A stretch of 20,292 bases of DNA. It comes from a virus. How positions within the stretch are numbered: position 1 is the first letter of the stretch; each line of letters starts with the position of its first letter. The DNA is taken from positions 1 through 20,292 of IMG/VR virus record IMGVR_UViG_3300030328_005535. One strand, written 5' to 3'. Below, piece by piece: positions 4,062-20,292 of this stretch. The notes below the pieces were generated by a model that was given only the letters and a program-made list of their open reading frames with translations, was not told the origin of the DNA and did not search any database. A program made the translations under genes and the position numbers.

Positions 4062-4354
4062 TATTTTGCAACGCCTCCTTTCGTTCCTGTGGTTTTTTTG
4101 GGTCCTCCTGGACTCCAAAGTTTTTTACAAGCCCAGTACGATGCAGAGAGCTTACTTTTGCGTTGATCACATTTATGACGAGCACGAAAAGAACGACGTG
4201 CAGAAGAAGAATAATTATGACCATACCCAGAAGCACCAAAGTGAATAACGCGCTCTTTTCCATCTTCACAACCCTTTACAACCATTTTCTTCTCAGGTTT
4301 CGGAGATCTCTTTGGTTTGTTGCACTTCATCTTTGATTTATCGAGTCGTTTCAT
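4061..4354 (-). CDS. Conserved phage small cysteine-containing protein (SFRARHKC...YWACKKLW family)
   Basis: The 97-residue product is very basic. An N-terminal Lys/Pro-rich segment (about 1-25) precedes a recognisable core: ERVIHFGASGYGHNYSS, then SFRARHKCDQ, then SYWACKKLWSPGG. The spacing of H, C, W and C in this core resembles a family of small proteins encoded in structural regions of marine and gut phages; I recognise the pattern but know no assigned function. Two of the Cys residues and the His could form a metal or disulfide site. The ribosome site is weak (GAGAAG). The stop overlaps the next start as TAATG. Its place between portal-proximal genes and scaffold suggests a virion or assembly role. 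Confidence 0.65.
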   Translation of the reverse strand: MKRLDKSKMKCNKPKRSPKPEKKMVVKGCEDGKERVIHFGASGYGHNYSSSARRSFRARHKCDQRKSKLSASYWACKKLWSPGGPKKTTGTKGGVAK

Positions 4355-4412
4355 TTTCTTCTCTTGTGTTGATATGAGATTTTTTTGGAGCTGGTCTTTT
4401 CACCCTTGAATC

Positions 4413-4946
4413 TTACATCCTACTCATAAACATTTTATCCATCTCGTCAGAGGTAGGCATTGATACTTCTTCTTCCATCTCTTCTTCAGTCTCCTCTTCA
4501 AACTCAGGAGGAGGATTCTGCAAAAACTTTTTGAACTCTCTATCTTGAGAAAGCTTTGTAATTTTACCGGCTAAGAGCATAATACTTCTGTCATCAGTTA
4601 TATCCTCAAGCTCAAAATCCATCTCCTCATCAAGATCACCAGAATCAACCGCATAATTTACAGCAGCTTGGAACATCCCGATAACTCGTACAAACTCATT
4701 TGGAAAAACCTGTATATCCTCATCAAACATAGGATAATCAGGAGTTTGCTCAAACAATGGTAATAATCTGTTTGCAGCAGTAACAAGATTGTTGAGAGCC
4801 TTTTTTGAGAACTTACCTCGAGGAGCAAGCTGATTGTACATATCTTCATCAATCTCCTCAGCTTTACCAATCTCTATCGACAAGTCAAGCTCTTGAGGTT
4901 CTCCACTCATACCGAGCATTTTCATTTCTTCTTTATTCATAGCCAT
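4413..4946 (-). CDS. Acidic head-module protein of unknown function
   Basis: A 177-residue, strongly acidic protein starting at ATG 4946 with a perfect AGGAGG five bases upstream. The core (about 45-110) is helical: SKKALNNLVTAANRLLPLFE, then MFDEDIQVFPNEFVRVIGMF. The C-terminal third is an acidic, Pro-containing tail (NPPPEFEEETEEEMEEEV) that ends SDEMDKMFMSRM. It lies between the zinc-ribbon protein and a basic 97-residue protein, in the portal-to-scaffold interval. The charge pattern (acidic, next to very basic neighbours) suggests an assembly partner or chaperone. I do not recognise a named family. A 58-base gap follows before the next start, with no clear terminator. Confidence 0.65.
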   Translation of the reverse strand: MAMNKEEMKMLGMSGEPQELDLSIEIGKAEEIDEDMYNQLAPRGKFSKKALNNLVTAANRLLPLFEQTPDYPMFDEDIQVFPNEFVRVIGMFQAAVNYAVDSGDLDEEMDFELEDITDDRSIMLLAGKITKLSQDREFKKFLQNPPPEFEEETEEEMEEEVSMPTSDEMDKMFMSRM

Positions 4947-7078: not shown

Positions 7079-8610
7079 CAGTATCTCCTATGTTCAGCAA
7101 CTGAAGCCCCAGTATATTCTCTTATACTCTTGCTTCTTCTTGTTTTCAACCATCCAGGTAAAAAACTATCTGTTTTCAATCGTACCTTTTTGAGTGCTAG
7201 GTTGGCAAGAGCTAAGGCCATAGCATTATCACAGTGAGATTTTCCATTGTGACCAAATTTAACTAAACCATTGTCATCAATCAAAATAGATCTCAAATCT
7301 CCAACCGTCTCAGAGTCAAGCACGTTGATTCTTTTCGAGCGTATATCCTTGGCTAAATCCTCAAAAATCATAATCTTGTTGCTTGCATTTGTAGCAAAGT
7401 CTCTTCCCTTCTCATCCTTCCAGATATGCGAGTATCCAGAATGACGAAGCTCATTGAGAACAACCAATCCTTGAGTCATAGCTTCGACAAGCACAGTCGC
7501 TTTATTATACCTGATTGCGGCATTGACAATGTACTCAGCAAAATCTTCAGGTTTGATCGTGTTGCTCCGAAACTGGAGAACAACCTGGTTAGTTTTTTTG
7601 CTCATAATCACAAAAGCAGATTTATCGCGACCAACTCCAGCAGCTGCATCAGCACCAAGCGCATACTCATCATCCTCTTGAGGTTCAGCATAGGTAACCC
7701 ACTGTTGACCGTCATAGGTTTGAACAATCGTAAGCTCTTGAAAATCAGCATACTCGAGGAGAGTTGAGCCAGTTGTTTGATAAGCCTCCTCAACTGTTGA
7801 AGGGTATTCTCTTACAAACTTTGATTTATTGGTTTGCGCGATCTTTGCACGTCTCCAACATAATTGCTCATCAGTGAGCTCAAATCTTCTCTTCAGCTCC
7901 TGCTCTTCTATCGTTGTTTTCCAGTCTCCAGTAAGAGATTTTTGATAGGTGGAATGTTTGAACCAAGCGAAGAAGAGAAAGCTCCAATCGTGATGCGAGT
8001 GCTCTTTATTTAAAAACTTACCAATCTCAGTATCAAGAGCATCTCCTGGAAAGTTGGCTGTTGATTCATAAATCAAAGTACCATCATTCACCGCAGACGT
8101 AGCAGCAGCCAGCAGCTCCTCAGGTTCTTTCGCAAACGCAAACTCAGATATATGCACCATTTCAGCAGTAAAAGAGCGCGTGGTACCATCAGCTCGAGCA
8201 CTCATACCGAGTATCCTAGCTCCAGTCTCAAACTTGAGCTCAAGCTGATTGTTTATCTCGAGTCTGTTGAGAGCTTGAACTTCTCCAGGAAGAGAGTTGT
8301 AATAGGTGTGGTGCATCCTCATTATTTGTTTTGTCGCGTCGCTCTTGTGAGTGAGCACAACGATTGTAATTGGATGAACGGACGTAAAAGCTTTTGCAAA
8401 CAACCAAGCAGATATACCAGTTGAAGCACCAACTTGACGAGGTTTCAAGATGATAACGCTTTTGCCAGTGTTGAGCTGCTCAATAATCTGCTCTTGCTCA
8501 TCGTTGAGATGGAGAAAAGCTTTCTTTCCTCCTTTGGTGATGATAGTGAGTTTCTCAATAAACTCATCGAGATGCTTACTCAAAAAATCAAGAGCATTGA
8601 AATCAGGCAT
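7078..8610 (-). CDS. terL: Terminase large subunit (packaging ATPase/nuclease)
   Basis: A 510-residue two-domain packaging motor. ATPase domain: Walker A LKPRQVGAST (about 55-64) and Walker B MVHISEF (151-157) with catalytic Glu156; TIVVLTHKSDATKQIM (about 82-97) fits the strand-helix that follows Walker A. RNase H-like nuclease: GADAAAGVGRDKSAFVI (Asp321), TVLVEAMTQG (Glu376) and HCDNAMALALANLAL (Asp461) provide the three acidic metal ligands. It cleaves concatemeric DNA and pumps it into the procapsid through the portal. The start at 8610 has AGGA eight bases upstream and overlaps the small subunit gene by eight bases. All key residues are present and the gene is intact. Confidence 0.95.
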   Translation of the reverse strand: MPDFNALDFLSKHLDEFIEKLTIITKGGKKAFLHLNDEQEQIIEQLNTGKSVIILKPRQVGASTGISAWLFAKAFTSVHPITIVVLTHKSDATKQIMRMHHTYYNSLPGEVQALNRLEINNQLELKFETGARILGMSARADGTTRSFTAEMVHISEFAFAKEPEELLAAATSAVNDGTLIYESTANFPGDALDTEIGKFLNKEHSHHDWSFLFFAWFKHSTYQKSLTGDWKTTIEEQELKRRFELTDEQLCWRRAKIAQTNKSKFVREYPSTVEEAYQTTGSTLLEYADFQELTIVQTYDGQQWVTYAEPQEDDEYALGADAAAGVGRDKSAFVIMSKKTNQVVLQFRSNTIKPEDFAEYIVNAAIRYNKATVLVEAMTQGLVVLNELRHSGYSHIWKDEKGRDFATNASNKIMIFEDLAKDIRSKRINVLDSETVGDLRSILIDDNGLVKFGHNGKSHCDNAMALALANLALKKVRLKTDSFLPGWLKTRRSKSIREYTGASVAEHRRY

Positions 8611-9100: not shown

Positions 9101-9370
9101 TCATAACAACAAATCACCTCTTTTGTAATCATTTTCCACAATAATGCGAGCATTCTCTTCCCATTTTTTACCATTGACAAGAGATAAGGCTTGACAGATA
9201 GCAACAAAGCTCGACATTTTGGGCTCGTGTTTATCATTCATATAATAGTAAAACAAACCAGTATCAACACCAGCTTTTTTGGCAAACCAGGCAACATCTT
9301 TATTTTTTGCGGTAAGAGTATCTCGTACATATTGCCAACCAGCTCGATAACGCTCCTGACCAAAAATCAT
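9101..9370 (-). CDS. Small HTH (XRE/lambda-repressor-like) regulator, control operon gene 4
   Basis: The 89-residue protein carries a helix-turn-helix of the XRE type at about residues 25-45 (DVAWFAKKAGVDTGLFYYYM), followed by SSFVAICQALSL, the usual fourth helix with its 'ALS' end. There is no peptidase domain, so unlike CI of lambda it would not be cleaved by RecA. It starts at ATG 9370 behind GAGGAGGAG, and ATGA overlaps the methyltransferase stop. As the last gene of the leftward operon it may autoregulate the operon or set late transcription. The DNA target is not visible, though the inverted repeat at 9065-9084 and the central operator at 10542-10564 are candidates. Confidence 0.75.
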   Translation of the reverse strand: MIFGQERYRAGWQYVRDTLTAKNKDVAWFAKKAGVDTGLFYYYMNDKHEPKMSSFVAICQALSLVNGKKWEENARIIVENDYKRGDLLL

Positions 9371-9990
9371 CTCTCCTCCTCAATCCAGCGAAAGATTGTA
9401 TCTCCAGTGTAATCTTTTTCGAAAACAATCCAAGCATATGATACAGCATTACCAGCTCCAAACTCTCCATTTTTACCGATGTTGATTCTGTAACTATACT
9501 GATAAACATATCGAGGAGGATGCTGAGAAAATATATCTTTGTAGCGTTGTTTTCCTTCTAGGTATCGAACAGGCAATAGAAAGAACAATCTTGAGCCAGA
9601 ATGAATCCGATTCATTCCTGCATCAAAAAACTCACTAAACAAAGAATAAGGGGGGTTAGTTACTATTTCTCCACACCATCTTTTTGGATGATCAAGTTTA
9701 TTTCTCACTTCTGCAGACATAAAAAGAGGAGAGATAAAATCGTGCTGCACAACTCCAGGAGCTCTCACAATCAAATCAGAGCTGAAAACATAATGACCAG
9801 CCTCTTCTAAAACATTTGAAATATGTTTCTCTCCAGCTGCACACTCCCAAAGACGATGCGACATTCTAATATTGTCTCTTTTGAGAGCAGCAAGGAAAGC
9901 TCTAACGTCCTTTGGATGAGTAGCGTAAAAATCATCCTTTGCTCTCTCCTCTCCAGTATGACTCGAGGAGCCTAATGTTTTGATGCTCAT
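9367..9990 (-). CDS. DNA N6-adenine methyltransferase (phage Dam-like)
   Basis: The 207-residue product has DDFYATHPKDVRAFL (about 19-33), an N-terminal segment I associate with phage adenine methylases. It also has a motif-I-like SAM-binding segment LWECAAGEKHIS (47-58), acidic SSDL (70-73) and the catalytic motif IV NPPY (112-115) after EIVT. It transfers a methyl group from SAM to adenine in a short DNA site. No restriction nuclease is adjacent, so it is an orphan enzyme, likely for protection from host restriction or for regulating promoters. I chose ATG 9990: it has GGAGGAGAG upstream and overlaps the previous stop as ATGA; an upstream in-frame codon at 10023 lacks a ribosome site. It is sandwiched between two HTH genes. 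Confidence 0.85.
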   Translation of the reverse strand: MSIKTLGSSSHTGEERAKDDFYATHPKDVRAFLAALKRDNIRMSHRLWECAAGEKHISNVLEEAGHYVFSSDLIVRAPGVVQHDFISPLFMSAEVRNKLDHPKRWCGEIVTNPPYSLFSEFFDAGMNRIHSGSRLFFLLPVRYLEGKQRYKDIFSQHPPRYVYQYSYRINIGKNGEFGAGNAVSYAWIVFEKDYTGDTIFRWIEEER

Positions 9991-10456: not shown

Positions 10457-10484
10457 TTTTCCTCCAGGATAGAATTGCAGTAAA

Positions 10485-10513
10485 AGAATAATCCTTTCTT
10501 AATTTATTTACAA
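10485..10513 (-). promoter_or_regulatory. Leftward control-operon promoter
   Basis: On the minus strand TTGTAA (10513-10508) and TATTCT (10490-10485) are exactly 17 bases apart. It faces the coiled-coil/HTH/methyltransferase operon and would give a leader of only about 20 bases. It lies back to back with the rightward promoter 30 bases away. Confidence 0.6.
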
Positions 10514-10541
10514 GTTTTTTTGTATAAAACTGAAATAATAC

Positions 10542-10570
10542 TTGCATATGTTGCATAAATGCAATATAAT
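10542..10570 (+). promoter_or_regulatory. Rightward early promoter with built-in operator
   Basis: TTGCAT (10542-10547) and a perfect TATAAT (10565-10570) are 17 bases apart. The spacer contains the inverted repeat TTGCAT-AA-ATGCAA (10551-10564), and the -35 hexamer is a third copy of the same half-site. A protein bound to this repeat would block RNA polymerase, so this is a probable repressor-operator. The promoter drives the replication operon that begins at 10593. Confidence 0.8.
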
Positions 10571-10592
10571 ATATATATAGAAGGAAGGAAAA

Positions 10593-11360: not shown

Positions 11361-12122
11361 ATGATCACTCTTAATCTTCCATCTGGTCTTGTTCTTGGAG
11401 CAAGACCATACAACACACTAACAGCTCTCTATCATTATGCTGTTAGTGATGGTTCTTTTACTGTTGAGCAGTATGCAAACGAGTGGGGATGGTCTTTACT
11501 GGAGACTTATACTTTTATCGAAAATAATCTTGCTGCAACTGCAACAAAACCAACACTAGAAATACAATGGCATAACTCTTGCAAATTAAGAATTAATTAT
11601 AATAACATGTATACTAGTAATACAATTCCTAGTATTACTAGTGTTGTTGGTGTACATGAGAATTTAAATTCTAAAAAAGGTATAAAAACTCTAATCCTCA
11701 ATGAAATCACTTTTGAGGTAGATCCGAACACCGATTCCAAACTTTGGTCACACGTTGAGCAATCAGAAGAGGTACAGCAGCTGCTTGAGTGTTGGGTAAT
11801 CCTCCACAAAGAGGCAGGGTTCACCACCAATATGCTAACAGCTCAAGATTTATCTGCAGCCTCCTCAGCGATTTACGATGAAAATGCAGAAAAAGCGATT
11901 GCTGTTTTTGAATGGCTATTCAATTCTGAGCACTATCGAGCCAAATACTTGCGCGACAGAAAGATGATCAGACCAGCAGTAGTCATTTCAAGAGCCAAAT
12001 TGGTACCAAATTTCATTTTATCACAAGATAGCAGTCTCAATACTGCTCAAGACAATAACAACACAAAAACAACCCCTTCTCTGCTCGAATTTGATGAGCA
12101 GGGGAATCTCATCGAGGAGTAA
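11361..12122 (+). CDS. Putative replication initiator (O/DnaD-like organisation)
   Basis: A 253-residue protein starting behind AAGGAGCTGTAAA. The N-terminal part (about 15-60: NTLTALYHYAVSDGSFTVEQ...EWGWSLLETYTFIE) reads like a winged-helix domain. An AT-rich linker follows (about 77-104). Then comes a helical C-terminal domain (DSKLWSHVEQSEEVQQLLEC, then ENAEKAIAVFEWLFNSEHYR) and a disordered tail. This order resembles phage initiators such as lambda O and DnaD-like replisome organisers, where the N-terminus binds origin repeats and the C-terminus recruits a helicase loader. The gene precedes a putative loader gene, as O precedes P. A cluster of palindromes lies inside the linker-coding part, as in lambda. 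No motif proves initiation, so the call is contextual. Confidence 0.55.
   Translation: MITLNLPSGLVLGARPYNTLTALYHYAVSDGSFTVEQYANEWGWSLLETYTFIENNLAATATKPTLEIQWHNSCKLRINYNNMYTSNTIPSITSVVGVHENLNSKKGIKTLILNEITFEVDPNTDSKLWSHVEQSEEVQQLLECWVILHKEAGFTTNMLTAQDLSAASSAIYDENAEKAIAVFEWLFNSEHYRAKYLRDRKMIRPAVVISRAKLVPNFILSQDSSLNTAQDNNNTKTTPSLLEFDEQGNLIEE
11591..11672 (+). repeat. Palindrome cluster inside the initiator gene, candidate replication origin
   Basis: Within about 80 AT-rich bases there are AATTAATT (11591-11598), an 11-bp perfect inverted repeat ACTAGTAATAC (11613-11623) / GTATTACTAGT (11632-11642) with an 8-base loop, outer 6-bp arms CATGTA (11606-11611) / TACATG (11653-11658), and a 14-base palindrome AGAATTTAAATTCT (11659-11672). 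The location matches that of the lambda origin inside gene O. Confidence 0.5.
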
Positions 12123-12126
12123 AACG

Positions 12127-12750
12127 ATGGCAAAAGAAAGAACAATCAAAAACGGTCTTAAACTGTTTTGTGCAAATTTTAACAAATCCGATACTTGGAT
12201 GGAGTCAGTATTGCCTCTCTGGACGACAACACTCAAGCAATACAAGGATCAAGTGACATATGAGAGTATCGTTGAGATATGTCAAGAACGACACCAATAC
12301 ACTCCAAAGCTCGGAGATGTTGTTGATAAAATCAAGAGCAAAATCAAGCAAAAGAAAATCACTACTCATAATGATCGACGCTTTTGTGATGATTGTAGAT
12401 ACCATTCTGGAATCAGAATTACAGTTGCTCAGTATTATCGACGTGATCAAAAAAATAGGTGGGTAGCCTCGGAGCGAGTTTGCGCTTGTACTTGTGACGA
12501 CGGTAGACACACTCATCCAGGACTCCATACTTTTGAGGAGAGATTGCAGCTGCTGAAGGAAGATCCTCGAGTTGATTTGTATGCTTATCTCGTAACAAGC
12601 AAAAACAAAACAATCTTTGATTTTGAAGTACGCGATCCGGTTAGCTACTCGGAGCATATTGAATGGTTAGAGGAGCGCGAAAAAAGCGGCAAAACTATAT
12701 CAAATTTACAAAACATACTGAACAAAAAACGAAATAGAGGTGAACAATGA
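12127..12750 (+). CDS. Putative helicase loader-like protein with a cysteine-rich zinc module
   Basis: The 207-residue product starts at ATG 12127 with GAGGAG seven bases upstream. The first 70 residues (LKLFCANFNKS, W24, YESIVEICQERHQYTPKLGDVV) resemble the helical N-terminal domain of phage helicase loaders of the G39P type, which end in a 'P-x-GD/E' turn. After a basic linker comes a cysteine cluster: CDDC (87-90) and CACTC (119-123), fit for zinc. The C-terminal third is charged and helical. It follows the initiator-like gene, as loaders usually do, and overlaps the next gene by ATGA. I see no P-loop, so this is not a DnaC-type ATPase. Loader function is an inference from resemblance and position. 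Confidence 0.5.
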   Translation: MAKERTIKNGLKLFCANFNKSDTWMESVLPLWTTTLKQYKDQVTYESIVEICQERHQYTPKLGDVVDKIKSKIKQKKITTHNDRRFCDDCRYHSGIRITVAQYYRRDQKNRWVASERVCACTCDDGRHTHPGLHTFEERLQLLKEDPRVDLYAYLVTSKNKTIFDFEVRDPVSYSEHIEWLEEREKSGKTISNLQNILNKKRNRGEQ

Positions 12751-12983
12751 ACGGCTTTGCAAAATGGTTAAAGACTCAACTTACTGAAAATAAAATCTCT
12801 CAGGAGCAGCTTGTAAGAGCTCTTGACATCAACCGATCAACTTTACACAGATGGTTAAAAGCAGAGAGCTTACCAAATGCTTTACAGTGGAATGGTATCG
12901 CGTGTTTTTTATCTTTTGAAATCAAAAAAGAACTCAGTGAAATACTCGTAGAAATGTGTTTTAGCTTAACGGAGGTGGTGTAA
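12747..12983 (+). CDS. Cro-like HTH (XRE-family) regulator in the replication operon
   Basis: The 78-residue product has a helix-turn-helix at about residues 18-38 (SQEQLVRALDINRSTLHRWL) with the usual first helix MNGFAKWLKTQLTE. Small size and lack of other domains resemble Cro-type repressors. It overlaps the preceding gene (ATGA) and the next small gene (TAATG). Being made from the rightward promoter, it could repress the leftward control operon or its own promoter through the TTGCAT half-sites. It is the third small HTH protein in the window and the only one on the plus strand. Confidence 0.75.
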   Translation: MNGFAKWLKTQLTENKISQEQLVRALDINRSTLHRWLKAESLPNALQWNGIACFLSFEIKKELSEILVEMCFSLTEVV

Positions 12984-13099
12984 TGAATTCGAACAGAGAA
13001 ATTCTTTTGTCCTGTATTGCTGGACTAGGTCTTTATTTTACTATGAGAGCTCTGATTTATATCGGTTGTGCGATCTGCTTACTTCTGGAGATACAATGA
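12983..13099 (+). CDS. 38-residue single-pass membrane peptide
   Basis: The ATG at 12983 overlaps the stop of the HTH gene (TAATG) and has GGAGG seven bases upstream; the TGA stop at 13097-13099 overlaps the exonuclease start as ATGA. The peptide begins MNSNREILL and continues with an almost uninterrupted hydrophobic helix, broken only by Arg22 (about residues 8-36: CIAGLGLYF, then YIGCAICLLLE). It looks like a small inner-membrane protein. Function is unknown: membrane tethering of replication, superinfection exclusion and host inhibition are all possible. Coupling on both sides and a good ribosome site make it likely to be a real gene despite its size. Confidence 0.65.
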   Translation: MNSNREILLSCIAGLGLYFTMRALIYIGCAICLLLEIQ

Positions 13100-13680
13100 A
13101 ATACCTCGTAATTGATACCGAAACTTCTGGACTCAATCCAATGATACATGAGCTCCTTGCTTTTGGGGCTATCGTTTTAATAGATGGAGTAGTAACAGAA
13201 ACAATCGAAATCAAAATCAAACCAAAGCATCTCGAAAATGCAGATCCCGAAGCTCTCCACATAAACGGTTATAACGAAAGAACCTGGAGACGAGCTATGC
13301 TACCCGAGCAGGCTGTATATCGAATACAATCTTTTCTCTATCGTCATCAAGATGCTGTGACTGTTGGTCATAATTTCAGCTTTGATAAAAAGTTTATCCA
13401 GGCTCTTGCAAACAGACAGGAGCAGATTTTGCCGATCCCATATCCCTATCTTGATACAATGGACATAGCGCGTACAATCCTTGCTCCATACGGATTGCAA
13501 TCGATGAAACTTGAGGAGATTTGCAAATTTGTAGGTTGGAAACGAAGAAGAGCTCACTCAGCTCTTTCCGATTGCGAAGATTGTACAAAAATCCTTCTCA
13601 ACATGTCTCCTCCTACCTGGAGATTTATCTTGAGACTGAAAACAATGAGCAAAATCAAGAAGCTCAAAGAGTTGTTTTAA
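13096..13680 (+). CDS. DnaQ-like 3'-5' exonuclease (DEDDh)
   Basis: The 194-residue product has all five DEDDh residues: Asp7 and Glu9 in VIDTETSGL (ExoI), Asp97 in GHNFSFDKKF (ExoII), and His154 with Asp159 in RRAHSALSDCEDC (ExoIII). These bind two metal ions and cut single-stranded DNA or RNA from the 3' end. LHINGY is the segment typical of the DnaQ/epsilon family. The start at 13096 follows GGAG; an in-frame start at 13066 lies inside the preceding small gene and has no ribosome site. As a stand-alone proofreading-type exonuclease in a replication operon without a polymerase here, it may act in recombination or end-processing, or assist a polymerase encoded elsewhere. It is the last gene before the convergent terminator. 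Confidence 0.9.
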   Translation: MKYLVIDTETSGLNPMIHELLAFGAIVLIDGVVTETIEIKIKPKHLENADPEALHINGYNERTWRRAMLPEQAVYRIQSFLYRHQDAVTVGHNFSFDKKFIQALANRQEQILPIPYPYLDTMDIARTILAPYGLQSMKLEEICKFVGWKRRRAHSALSDCEDCTKILLNMSPPTWRFILRLKTMSKIKKLKELF

Positions 13681-16721: not shown

Positions 16722-19700
16722 TCAAAGATCTATTATATTCAAATCATTATTATTTTCTGGTGGTGGTGGTGGTGTTGAGGTATCAAGACTTTTTTCAATC
16801 TTTTGCTCTTTACCTCCTCTCTGAATCCGCCTCAATTCCTTGATGCGATTCTCAAGCTCCTCCTCTCTCTTGATGAGCTGAAATAAATCAAAAGATTCAG
16901 TTTTTTGCATACCAAATGGAGTCGTAAAACCGATGAGAGAGGTGAGCTTACCAATCTCGCCAAGTTTTTGAGAGCTGGTTCCTTCAGTTGCAAAAAACTT
17001 GGAATAATCTTTGGCTGGTGTTCCAAGAAACAAATAATCAAGAGCATATTTTGAAAATACGTTCCATCGTTTTTGTTGAGCTGCATTGAGCTGATAAGTA
17101 TAAAAAGTTTCTTTTCCTTCTTTGGTAATACCACTAACACCACCTTTCTCTTCTCCTGTTGGAGTTGGTATAACCTGACCACCAACAACAACTTGAAGGA
17201 GAGAAGCGATCTCGTTTGGATCTTCAGAGTATGTATTTTTTATAATGTTCACATATTCAGAAGGAATTCTTTTTGCCCTACCAAATTCAGACTCCAACCC
17301 CAACAATCTTTTAAATTGAGGAGCGAGCTGCTTTTGTGTAACAGCCGAAATACCTTCAGAAGCGATTTGAGTTGCGAGTAATATTGCATCAATCGCAGGG
17401 ATCGGAGGAGTCGCCAAATACCAGTCCTTCTCTTGTCCTTTTTGCACATCAAGAACCGTTCTAAACATTGTGTACTCAGGAAAAAACGCTTGATGAGGAA
17501 ACCGTTTACCACCATTGAGCTCAGCAGCAAGAGCTTCAACACCACGATCAAACTTGAGCACGTTCATATATCTGTTTAATTTCTTTGTTTTTAATAAACT
17601 TTTTAAAAGAGTTGTAAAGTTTTGTCTGTTAAAACTGTAGAAAATAAAGAAATAAGAAGCTAAAGCCTTCTCAGCAGGAAACATATCATTATAATCAAAG
17701 AGAGAACGACGAGCCAACTGAGTTGCCTCTTCAATACTCCGCCCCTCTTCAAGAGCTTTGATCATCGCTCCAGCTCGAAAAACTAAATCTTCAGTAACAG
17801 TCAAATCATTGAGGTTACTTGGAGCATCTTTAATAAAATCAATAACTCTCTTTGAGATTCCTTCTCCTTTTCCTCCAGCTCGTTTTAACCAGGATAAAAA
17901 CGCGTCATCGTTTACCGCACTGGTCATAAATGAAAACTCAGAACGAACACCGGATCGACGAACAGCCTCATATATATCACCATAAGTGTACACAGCTCCT
18001 CCAGGAGCACGAACAGCAATCTCATTAACTTTACGAGCTCCAGGAGAAGAAGCAAAGAACGCAACATCAAAGCCCTTCTTTGTTGCTGATGCTCCTATAA
18101 CTTTACCGATTGTTGAGTACATGATAGCGTTTGCTGTTAGTACGTTTGCACCGTGAAAGCGTGGACGCATAGCAAGAAGTACAGTATAACGAAAAGAATT
18201 CATTTGATTGAAAAACTTCTTTACAGCAAGAAAACCTTTTGGAGTTGCAGAAACACTTCTCAAAAAAGTATCTAAATCTTTGGTCAAAGAAGAAGCGCGT
18301 CCTTCTGTCAGAGCTCTATTGATTTGAGAGTAGTATTCTTCTCCAACGATAGCAGCGGCAAACTTTTTATTACTACCATTGAACAAATCATCCAAAAGAC
18401 TTTTCATACCAGCAAGATCAAGATGAGTATAATCAGAGAGTCCGTTTTTCCTGGTAATTACCTCAGCATATTCAATCGCTTTGCGAGCAACATCAGGCTC
18501 CAAACCTATATCAAGCAAATTGTCATATATATACGAATATGGAACAATTCTATTATGACCGAGAAGAACAGCTTCTTTAACTGCATCCTGAAAAACTTTA
18601 TCATCAATATTTTTTCCAGGAAAAATTGCTGTTGTTGTTGTTGGTGTAAATTCTTTATTAATTACATTCAAGAGCTTCTTATCTTTGATGCGAGCCGTCT
18701 CAGCATTGTAAAACAAACCAAGTCCAATTTCACCTTTTACTTTCTCCAGTTCAGCAGCTTTAATCGTTTTAGGCTTAACATTTACATTAACAATTCTTTC
18801 ACCATCAACAACACCAGTATCAAGTTTTACTTTCCATCCTTCAATAAACTGCTCATACAATCTCCAAAAATCGCGAGGAGAATCAATAACTTGAGAAGCA
18901 AGATCCAAAGATTCTTTTCTTAGCATCCTCTTACCTGCTTGATTGAGTATATTGTTATCGTAAAGTTTTTGAGCTCCAATCACATTATCAATGATGTTTT
19001 CATAACTCTTTGAGTCATAAAACAGACGATCAAACGACCAACGGAAAACCTCATCAAGAATTTGCTTTTGTCTTGCCAGCCCTCGAGCATCTTGCCGAGC
19101 TCCAACAGTGATCACACCAAGAGCCTCCATCCTACTTATATTTATATCAGGATCTTGAACATATAAAGCACGTTGCTCAGCACTCTTAAGCAAACCATTG
19201 ATCTCTCTTTTAGCCTTTGTATCAAGCGTTGAAGCCTCCTGCTGAATCTCTTTTACCAATACTCTCAGCTCAACACTCGTATCCTTCATCGTTTGAGGTA
19301 TTGATGGAGTTGTATTGTTTTTGAGTATCTTTTTTGATGCAGCAGAATACAAATCTTTTAGTACATCAAAACCACCAAACGCGCGCTCTTGAGTCCCCTC
19401 AGCCTCCAGGAGCTTCTTTTGCTCTCTTGCTGGTAATCTTGATATATCCTCTCGAGTAGCTATATCCGATTGTAATGCTCTTGCTGTATTGTCTATATTC
19501 GTATCAATGAGCAACCTATAATCATCCAGGTACAACTTGCCCTCATCTATTGACGCAGCAATAAAACTCTTTTGAGAAGGAGGAAGATTGAGCTCCTGGA
19601 GAAGAGGTTTGAGAGCATCCTGTTGCTCTTCTGTAATCTTGAAAAAGTTTGTTGGTACTCCTTCTTTTGTTACCTTGCCTCTTTGATATGCAATACCAAG

Positions 19701-20292
19701 AGAAGATTGTGCTGGTTTTACATCTTTTCCAACCTTAGCAACATTCGAGATACTTGAGAGCTCACGACCGAGAGGAGACTCGAGAGAAGAAGCCAGTATA
19801 TCAGAAACTTTACTTTTATGACTCCAGGTATTACGAGTAACAGCAATCATATTCTCAAGAGATTGCAGGTTTGGAGTTTGCTCGAATACAACGGCTCTAG
19901 CGTATTGTTGATCAAGAAGCTTCTTTGCTTTTGTTACATCATCTCCAGCAGCACGAAGAGTATCCTCAATCACTCGAGGTTTTATTTTATAGCCTAAATC
20001 ATCAGCTCGAGCAGCTGCTTTACTCTTTCCAAATTGAGCAACATCATCAAGATAACGCTGAGAATCGTCGAGCTCTTTGAGCAAACTTTTTACCTCATCA
20101 GAAGGAGCGAGTTGCTCTTTGAGCCTGAGCTTTGCAGTATCAAAATCTTCTTTGATGAGCTGCTCATCAAGTGCTTTGCTGTATGTAGTCTCTCTTAATC
20201 CAACTTCTTCCAGTTGACGAAGAGCAGCTGCTTGATCAGGAGCCGCCTCAACTATTCTTTTCGCGTCAAGAGATTGAGCAAAATCATCAGCA
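16722..20292 (-). CDS. Giant virion protein, probable internal/ejection protein, 5' end outside window
   Basis: The frame stays open from the stop at 16722 to the right edge, giving at least 1190 residues; the start is beyond the window (a TTG at 20084 is not a real start because the frame continues upstream in the same style). The visible N-terminal half is charged and helical. About two-thirds along lie FRYTVLLAMRPRFHGANVLT and, further on, RRSLFDYNDMFPAEKALASY followed by FFIFYSFNRQNFTTLLKSLL; I associate 'LFDY-x-D ... F-x-x-x-R-x-N' with huge internal or ejected proteins of environmental podo-like phages. The C-terminus ends in a coiled coil (REEELENRIKELRRI) and a short poly-Pro tail. 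No lysozyme, protease or polymerase motif is seen in this part. It is first in the visible late block. Confidence 0.65.
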   Translation of the reverse strand, partial: ADDFAQSLDAKRIVEAAPDQAAALRQLEEVGLRETTYSKALDEQLIKEDFDTAKLRLKEQLAPSDEVKSLLKELDDSQRYLDDVAQFGKSKAAARADDLGYKIKPRVIEDTLRAAGDDVTKAKKLLDQQYARAVVFEQTPNLQSLENMIAVTRNTWSHKSKVSDILASSLESPLGRELSSISNVAKVGKDVKPAQSSLGIAYQRGKVTKEGVPTNFFKITEEQQDALKPLLQELNLPPSQKSFIAASIDEGKLYLDDYRLLIDTNIDNTARALQSDIATREDISRLPAREQKKLLEAEGTQERAFGGFDVLKDLYSAASKKILKNNTTPSIPQTMKDTSVELRVLVKEIQQEASTLDTKAKREINGLLKSAEQRALYVQDPDINISRMEALGVITVGARQDARGLARQKQILDEVFRWSFDRLFYDSKSYENIIDNVIGAQKLYDNNILNQAGKRMLRKESLDLASQVIDSPRDFWRLYEQFIEGWKVKLDTGVVDGERIVNVNVKPKTIKAAELEKVKGEIGLGLFYNAETARIKDKKLLNVINKEFTPTTTTAIFPGKNIDDKVFQDAVKEAVLLGHNRIVPYSYIYDNLLDIGLEPDVARKAIEYAEVITRKNGLSDYTHLDLAGMKSLLDDLFNGSNKKFAAAIVGEEYYSQINRALTEGRASSLTKDLDTFLRSVSATPKGFLAVKKFFNQMNSFRYTVLLAMRPRFHGANVLTANAIMYSTIGKVIGASATKKGFDVAFFASSPGARKVNEIAVRAPGGAVYTYGDIYEAVRRSGVRSEFSFMTSAVNDDAFLSWLKRAGGKGEGISKRVIDFIKDAPSNLNDLTVTEDLVFRAGAMIKALEEGRSIEEATQLARRSLFDYNDMFPAEKALASYFFIFYSFNRQNFTTLLKSLLKTKKLNRYMNVLKFDRGVEALAAELNGGKRFPHQAFFPEYTMFRTVLDVQKGQEKDWYLATPPIPAIDAILLATQIASEGISAVTQKQLAPQFKRLLGLESEFGRAKRIPSEYVNIIKNTYSEDPNEIASLLQVVVGGQVIPTPTGEEKGGVSGITKEGKETFYTYQLNAAQQKRWNVFSKYALDYLFLGTPAKDYSKFFATEGTSSQKLGEIGKLTSLIGFTTPFGMQKTESFDLFQLIKREEELENRIKELRRIQRGGKEQKIEKSLDTSTPPPPPENNNDLNIIDL

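Follow-up and report, generated by a model that had tools for sequence, protein, structure and literature searches.

The origin of phage lambda lies within the gene for its own initiator. Its sites sit in the middle of gene O beside an AT-rich tract, with the gene for loader P directly downstream; they are four iterons, each about 19 bp long and imperfectly inverted-repeat in structure (PMC7466680). In phage SPP1, oriL comprises repeats and an AT-rich DUE inside gene 38, which encodes a 256-aa origin-binding protein, and the gene for the loader gp39 follows directly (PMC6316719).

Here we describe a locus of related design in the 20,292-bp virus record IMGVR_UViG_3300030328_005535, the whole of which was analyzed and is called the window below. 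A cluster of sites lies mid-gene in a putative initiator gene and, as in lambda, is next to an AT-rich tract and directly upstream of a gene whose product has a predicted P fold. Gene order and AT tract likewise resemble those of SPP1, as does the length of the protein (253 aa against 256). The site layout differs from both, with three copies of 12-14 bp rather than a tandem row of at least four iterons, each about 19 bp, as in lambda, and with two direct copies and one inverted copy where SPP1 has direct repeats. The putative initiator is not recognizably O-like (no match in Pfam, PHROGs, NCBIfam or PDB sequences) and has no detected sequence relation to SPP1 gp38, while the loader, unlike P, carries an extra zinc ribbon. 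Neither the second SPP1 origin, oriR, nor its loader-adjacent DnaB-type helicase was seen in the 20-kb record. Because the initiator is not recognizably O-like and the iterons differ, sequence comparison places the element outside the lambdoid family proper.

Positions 11520-11678 are probably a phage replication origin, or its initiator-binding core, kept inside the initiator gene. Since constrained repeats and an AT tract in mid-gene before a P-fold loader match both lambda and SPP1, the most likely reading is an in-gene origin that works on the same principle as lambda O/ori and SPP1 gene 38/oriL, with an unrelated initiator sequence and a different arrangement of sites. It would add to such origins one from uncultured phages whose sites are compactly and palindromically arranged and whose initiator belongs to no known family, and support for it comes from selection on silent sites, beyond resemblance alone.

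A three-copy motif within the gene

The gene was found in three related contigs, L002 (96% protein identity) and L003 and L004 (75%), the latter two being 99.8% identical at the DNA level and counted as one lineage. The features discussed below are listed in Table 1.

Table 1. Genes and sequence elements of the window, with positions in the record
Feature	Position	Strand	Remarks
Terminase subunits, amidase, other probable structural genes		-	
Early operon		+	SWIM-like ORF, small ORF, ORF 11361-12122, loader-like ORF, HTH ORF, DnaQ-like exonuclease
Putative replication initiator gene, 253 aa	11361..12122	+	Contains the sites; directly before the predicted lambda-P-fold loader gene
S1, CACTAGAAATACAA	11554-11567	+	Position kept in all relatives
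AT tract, AAATTAAGAATTAATTATAATAA	11583..11605		96% AT; between S1 and S2; candidate unwinding element
Palindrome TACTAGTA	11612-11619		
S2, TACTAGTAATACAA	11612-11625	+	Kept in relatives; in L003, 11622-11623 reads TT for AC
Palindrome CTAGTATTACTAG	11629-11641		
S3, CACTAGTAATACTA (minus-strand reading)	11643-11630	-	Faces S2
Palindrome AGAATTTAAATTCT	11659-11672		Right edge of constrained stretch
Helicase-loader-like gene, 207 aa	12127..12750	+	Predicted lambda-P-like helical N-domain and C4 zinc ribbon
HTH (Cro/C1-type) ORF, early operon	12747..12983	+	Pfam HTH_26, E=1.5e-4
DnaQ-like exonuclease, early operon	13096..13680	+	Pfam RNase_T, E=3e-20; PHROG 192, E=3e-32

An earlier note on this DNA had proposed an origin at 11591-11672 from palindromes, nested outer arms and recurring CTAGTA-like words, all of which we found. 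The center of this symmetry is an 11-bp perfect inverted repeat (ACTAGTAATAC/GTATTACTAGT, 11613-11623/11632-11642, 8-nt spacer), the longest in the record with a loop of at most 20 nt. Outer arms (CATGTATAC/GTGTACATG) are also present, and the words are CTAGTA at 11614 and 11629 and CTAGTG at 11638. All relatives have T in place of G11660, which reduces palindrome AGAATTTAAATTCT to a 10-bp core. Arms of at least 11 bp arose in 2 of 300 synonymous and 4 of 300 dinucleotide shuffles of the gene and in 8 of 2,000 further synonymous shuffles, a rarity that taken alone would be modest evidence. The palindrome density of the best 82-bp segment of the gene was matched in none of the 300 synonymous and 2 of the 300 dinucleotide shuffles.

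The CTAGTA-like words proved to be parts of a longer repeated motif, CACTAGWAATACAA, 14 bp long and present in three copies (S1-S3) with no mismatch or one; elsewhere in the record nothing matches it with one mismatch or fewer. The palindromes are thus real, but the unit is this 12-14-bp motif in triplicate rather than a palindrome, and S1 lies outside the interval first proposed. S2 faces S3, and the pair therefore forms the palindrome at 11613-11642. Together the sites span codons 65-95 of 253 in a +,+,- arrangement with uneven spacing (starts at 11554, 11612 and 11643). The gap between S1 and S2 is 44 bp, and the CTAG spacings of 58/15/9 are identical across all relatives. None of 2,000 synonymous shuffles reached three copies of the core ACTAGWAATAC, a descriptive figure rather than an independent test because the motif was derived from the same copies. 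The AT tract falls in the top 0.025% of the record's windows of the same length and is unchanged in relatives. No 11-bp periodicity, 11-bp iteron array or tandem array was detected in the window or its close relatives.

Comparison with L003 separates the motif from its symmetry. Nine of 11 palindrome pairs are retained there; the two inner pairs that are lost have no compensating change, with the words retained, so that the motif words are better conserved than the pairing of the inner palindrome. This bears on a very improbable alternative, that the palindrome acts in mRNA as a hairpin controlling translation or stability. The region does fold better than shuffles (z of -3.4 on the plus strand, -3.1 on the minus strand and -4.3 for the core), but both strands fold well, as any palindrome would, and the best fold of L003 differs. 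Constraint moreover begins well before the hairpin, reaching S1 50 bp upstream, and Rfam gave no match. Insertion of a mobile palindromic element was considered and rejected; in IMG/VR the palindrome pattern occurs only at the same locus in relatives, and every homologue has it, giving no sign of insertion.

Silent-site constraint on 11520-11678

We next compared the window with L003 at codons that encode the same degenerate amino acid in both. Across codons 54-106 (11520-11678), 0 of 42 testable codons had changed silently, compared with 58 of 140 among the gene's other codons (Fisher P=8e-9). The 11 nucleotide changes that did occur in this stretch were split 7:3:1 over codon positions 1:2:3, against 35:33:86 outside it (P=0.003). 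The protein thus changes across 11520-11678 while the DNA words persist, which points to selection on the DNA itself, independent of the protein. No other run free of silent change is as long in any of the 11 shared genes, and 0 of 5,000 within-gene shuffles equaled it; the next most extreme, in TerL, covers 30 testable codons (within-gene P=0.01). Because silent sites are frozen despite amino-acid changes, to a degree unmatched in the other shared genes, the DNA of this stretch is constrained. The test of conservation at synonymous sites, which the earlier note had named as a check on its proposal, is therefore strongly positive, although the constrained element is larger than the symmetric region at 11591-11672. 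The closer relative L002, at about 5% DNA divergence, has three differences from the window within 11520-11678. Only the one at 11573, which falls in none of the motif copies, is silent.

The same comparison bears on two further explanations. Chance palindromes are to be expected at some rate in AT-rich coding DNA, and the 11-bp arm alone turns up in about 0.4-1.3% of shuffles; we give this account almost no credence, as it is contradicted by the silent-site freeze and by a three-copy motif kept in all relatives. A recent gene conversion could have swapped the stretch between lineages and left it too little time to diverge. Phage genomes are mosaic and TerL also has its shorter silent-free run, yet after a swap silent changes should come first, and the changes observed show the opposite bias over codon positions; we rate conversion as highly unlikely.

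Two other silent-free stretches were noted. The TerL run (codons 215-252, 7855-7968) might mark a packaging site, or stem from recombination or chance. The putative initiator gene has, towards its 3' end, a second and shorter stretch without silent change relative to L003, which covers codons 213-239 (11997-12077) and is T-poor and A-rich (CAATAACAACACAAAAACAACC).

The gene product, its loader and the early operon

The product of ORF 11361-12122 has few visible relatives. Searches of 50,697 phage records with tblastn, which could miss distant relatives, returned no match, and no homologue was found in bacterial genomes or in more distant relatives reached via the terminase (34% identity). Its AlphaFold model has a mean pLDDT of 41, with helices at 19-57, strands at 65-80 and helices at 126-199, all at low confidence. 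Residues 61-100 have a pLDDT of about 25-30, which is compatible with the earlier placement of the site in a linker between protein domains. Foldseek matches of the model were dismissed as noise and revealed no known-initiator fold.

The product of the gene directly downstream weakly matches PHROG 2289 (helicase loader, E=0.003), and four of its cysteines are invariant across 20 homologues. A model built with these homologues has a confident N-terminal helical domain (residues 1-70, block pLDDT 81-93), which VIA-align superimposed on lambda P in complex with DnaB (9oa1) at Z 8.4 and 2.6 A rmsd over 77 residues, the next match being at Z 3.9; by the tool's own note, helical domains can score a Z near 8 without this being remarkable. 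Foldseek returned the same entry at probability 0.90, yet with E=0.83, and a Pfam search gave no sequence match to lambda P. On this structural comparison, the case for a lambda-P-fold helicase loader is good but not final.

The motif copies, AT tract, silent-site constraint, predicted loader fold and gene order form the basis for a model of how the element would work. The 253-aa protein would act as initiator and bind S1-S3, and once bound may distort and melt the AT tract between S1 and S2. The predicted loader would then recruit and load a replicative helicase, either the host's or one encoded outside the record, and thereby give the element its activity as an origin. Several observations count against an origin. 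The presumed initiator matches no known initiator in sequence or fold, the site is carried by only two or three independent lineages, three sites are few and their spacing is uneven, and in most sister phages (below) iteron arrays lie outside the gene.

The main rival to an origin is an operator or internal promoter, at which a regulator (the ORF product or one of the HTH proteins) would control transcription of the loader, HTH and exonuclease genes from within the gene. Inverted sites are typical of operators, and the operon includes a Cro/C1-type HTH gene. Immediately ahead of S2 there is a TATAAT word (11598-11603), and overlapping the site is a single sigma70-like match (TTAAGA-18-TATACT, 9/12). 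However, no good -35 stands 16-18 nt from the exact TATAAT, and promoter-like sites show no excess, with 8 found and 9.0 expected from shuffles. The motif is also absent from the divergent intergenic region at 10457-10592, the expected seat of early regulation, and the freeze extends over the whole AT tract, beyond promoter-like words. We therefore regard regulation as an unlikely function of the sites, though less so than the RNA-level and conversion accounts above.

GC skew along the record tracks gene strand and is thus uninformative on the position of an origin. A DNA methyltransferase-like ORF on the minus strand (9367-9990; PHROG 799, E=4e-43) separates the packaging genes from the early operon. 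The ORFs that leave both ends of the record (1-1016 and 16722-20292) would share a reading frame in a circular form of the record, which by coincidence alone happens one time in three; IMG/VR detected no repeats at the ends.

Sister phages with iteron arrays

Using the exonuclease as a lead, we identified over 30 related loci. With a profile seeded from eight contigs, a winged-helix-like ORF was detected in 24 distinct contigs, those eight included. On every such contig that also carries the loader, the ORF is upstream of it on the same strand, directly adjacent in about 12 cases and otherwise within about 1.1 kb, the position that the putative initiator ORF holds in the window. The N-terminus of the 253-aa protein aligns with this family in the same order, at a non-significant E of 0.06-0.7, and we do not claim homology.

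Most sister phages encode a stand-alone winged-helix-like protein of about 75 aa and carry, in intergenic space near the exonuclease, two arrays that each comprise about five 11-bp iterons (mostly TTTGTGGGCNN), with 42-46 bp between the arrays. A second group (L020, L026, L029, L030, L034 and L052) encodes a longer protein, of about 200 aa, that includes a linker. The L020 gene (215 aa; 4072-4719, minus strand) abuts the loader gene and itself contains two 11-bp iteron arrays (GACTCNAGNGA) separated by about 45 bp; in L030 and L052 the 11-bp periodicity within the gene is weaker. The window shares with the array-bearing phages (L035, L019 and L020 among them) the exonuclease and loader families, and the S1-S2 gap is close to the spacing of the sister arrays. 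The arrays differ in consisting of direct iterons, mostly intergenic and unrelated in sequence to the window's motif.

The proposal of an origin inside an initiator gene thus draws support from the sister gene order and the in-gene iterons of L020, in addition to the silent-site freeze and the predicted lambda-P-fold loader downstream. We tentatively suggest, as a possibility that we hold to be somewhat doubtful, that in one group of related uncultured phages the replication site has shifted between an intergenic double array (with the 75-aa winged-helix-like protein), an in-gene array (215 aa, L020) and the in-gene three-site palindromic cluster of the window, with the lambda-P-fold loader constant throughout; such a natural series would trace the embedding of an origin in the gene of its initiator. 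Comparison of the sister loci makes it possible to test by what route, and for what reason, phages place origins in initiator genes.

The double array of direct 11-bp iterons is a conserved element, found at L018 3481-3616, L035 5494-5644, L044 4875-5021, L019 4804-4929 and about 15 further loci. Its first array is bounded by inverted ATTGCACTTTTT / AAAAATAAGTGCAATGATTACAGGGG, and the intergenic layout recalls that of the centromere parC of plasmid R1, or of an iteron origin.
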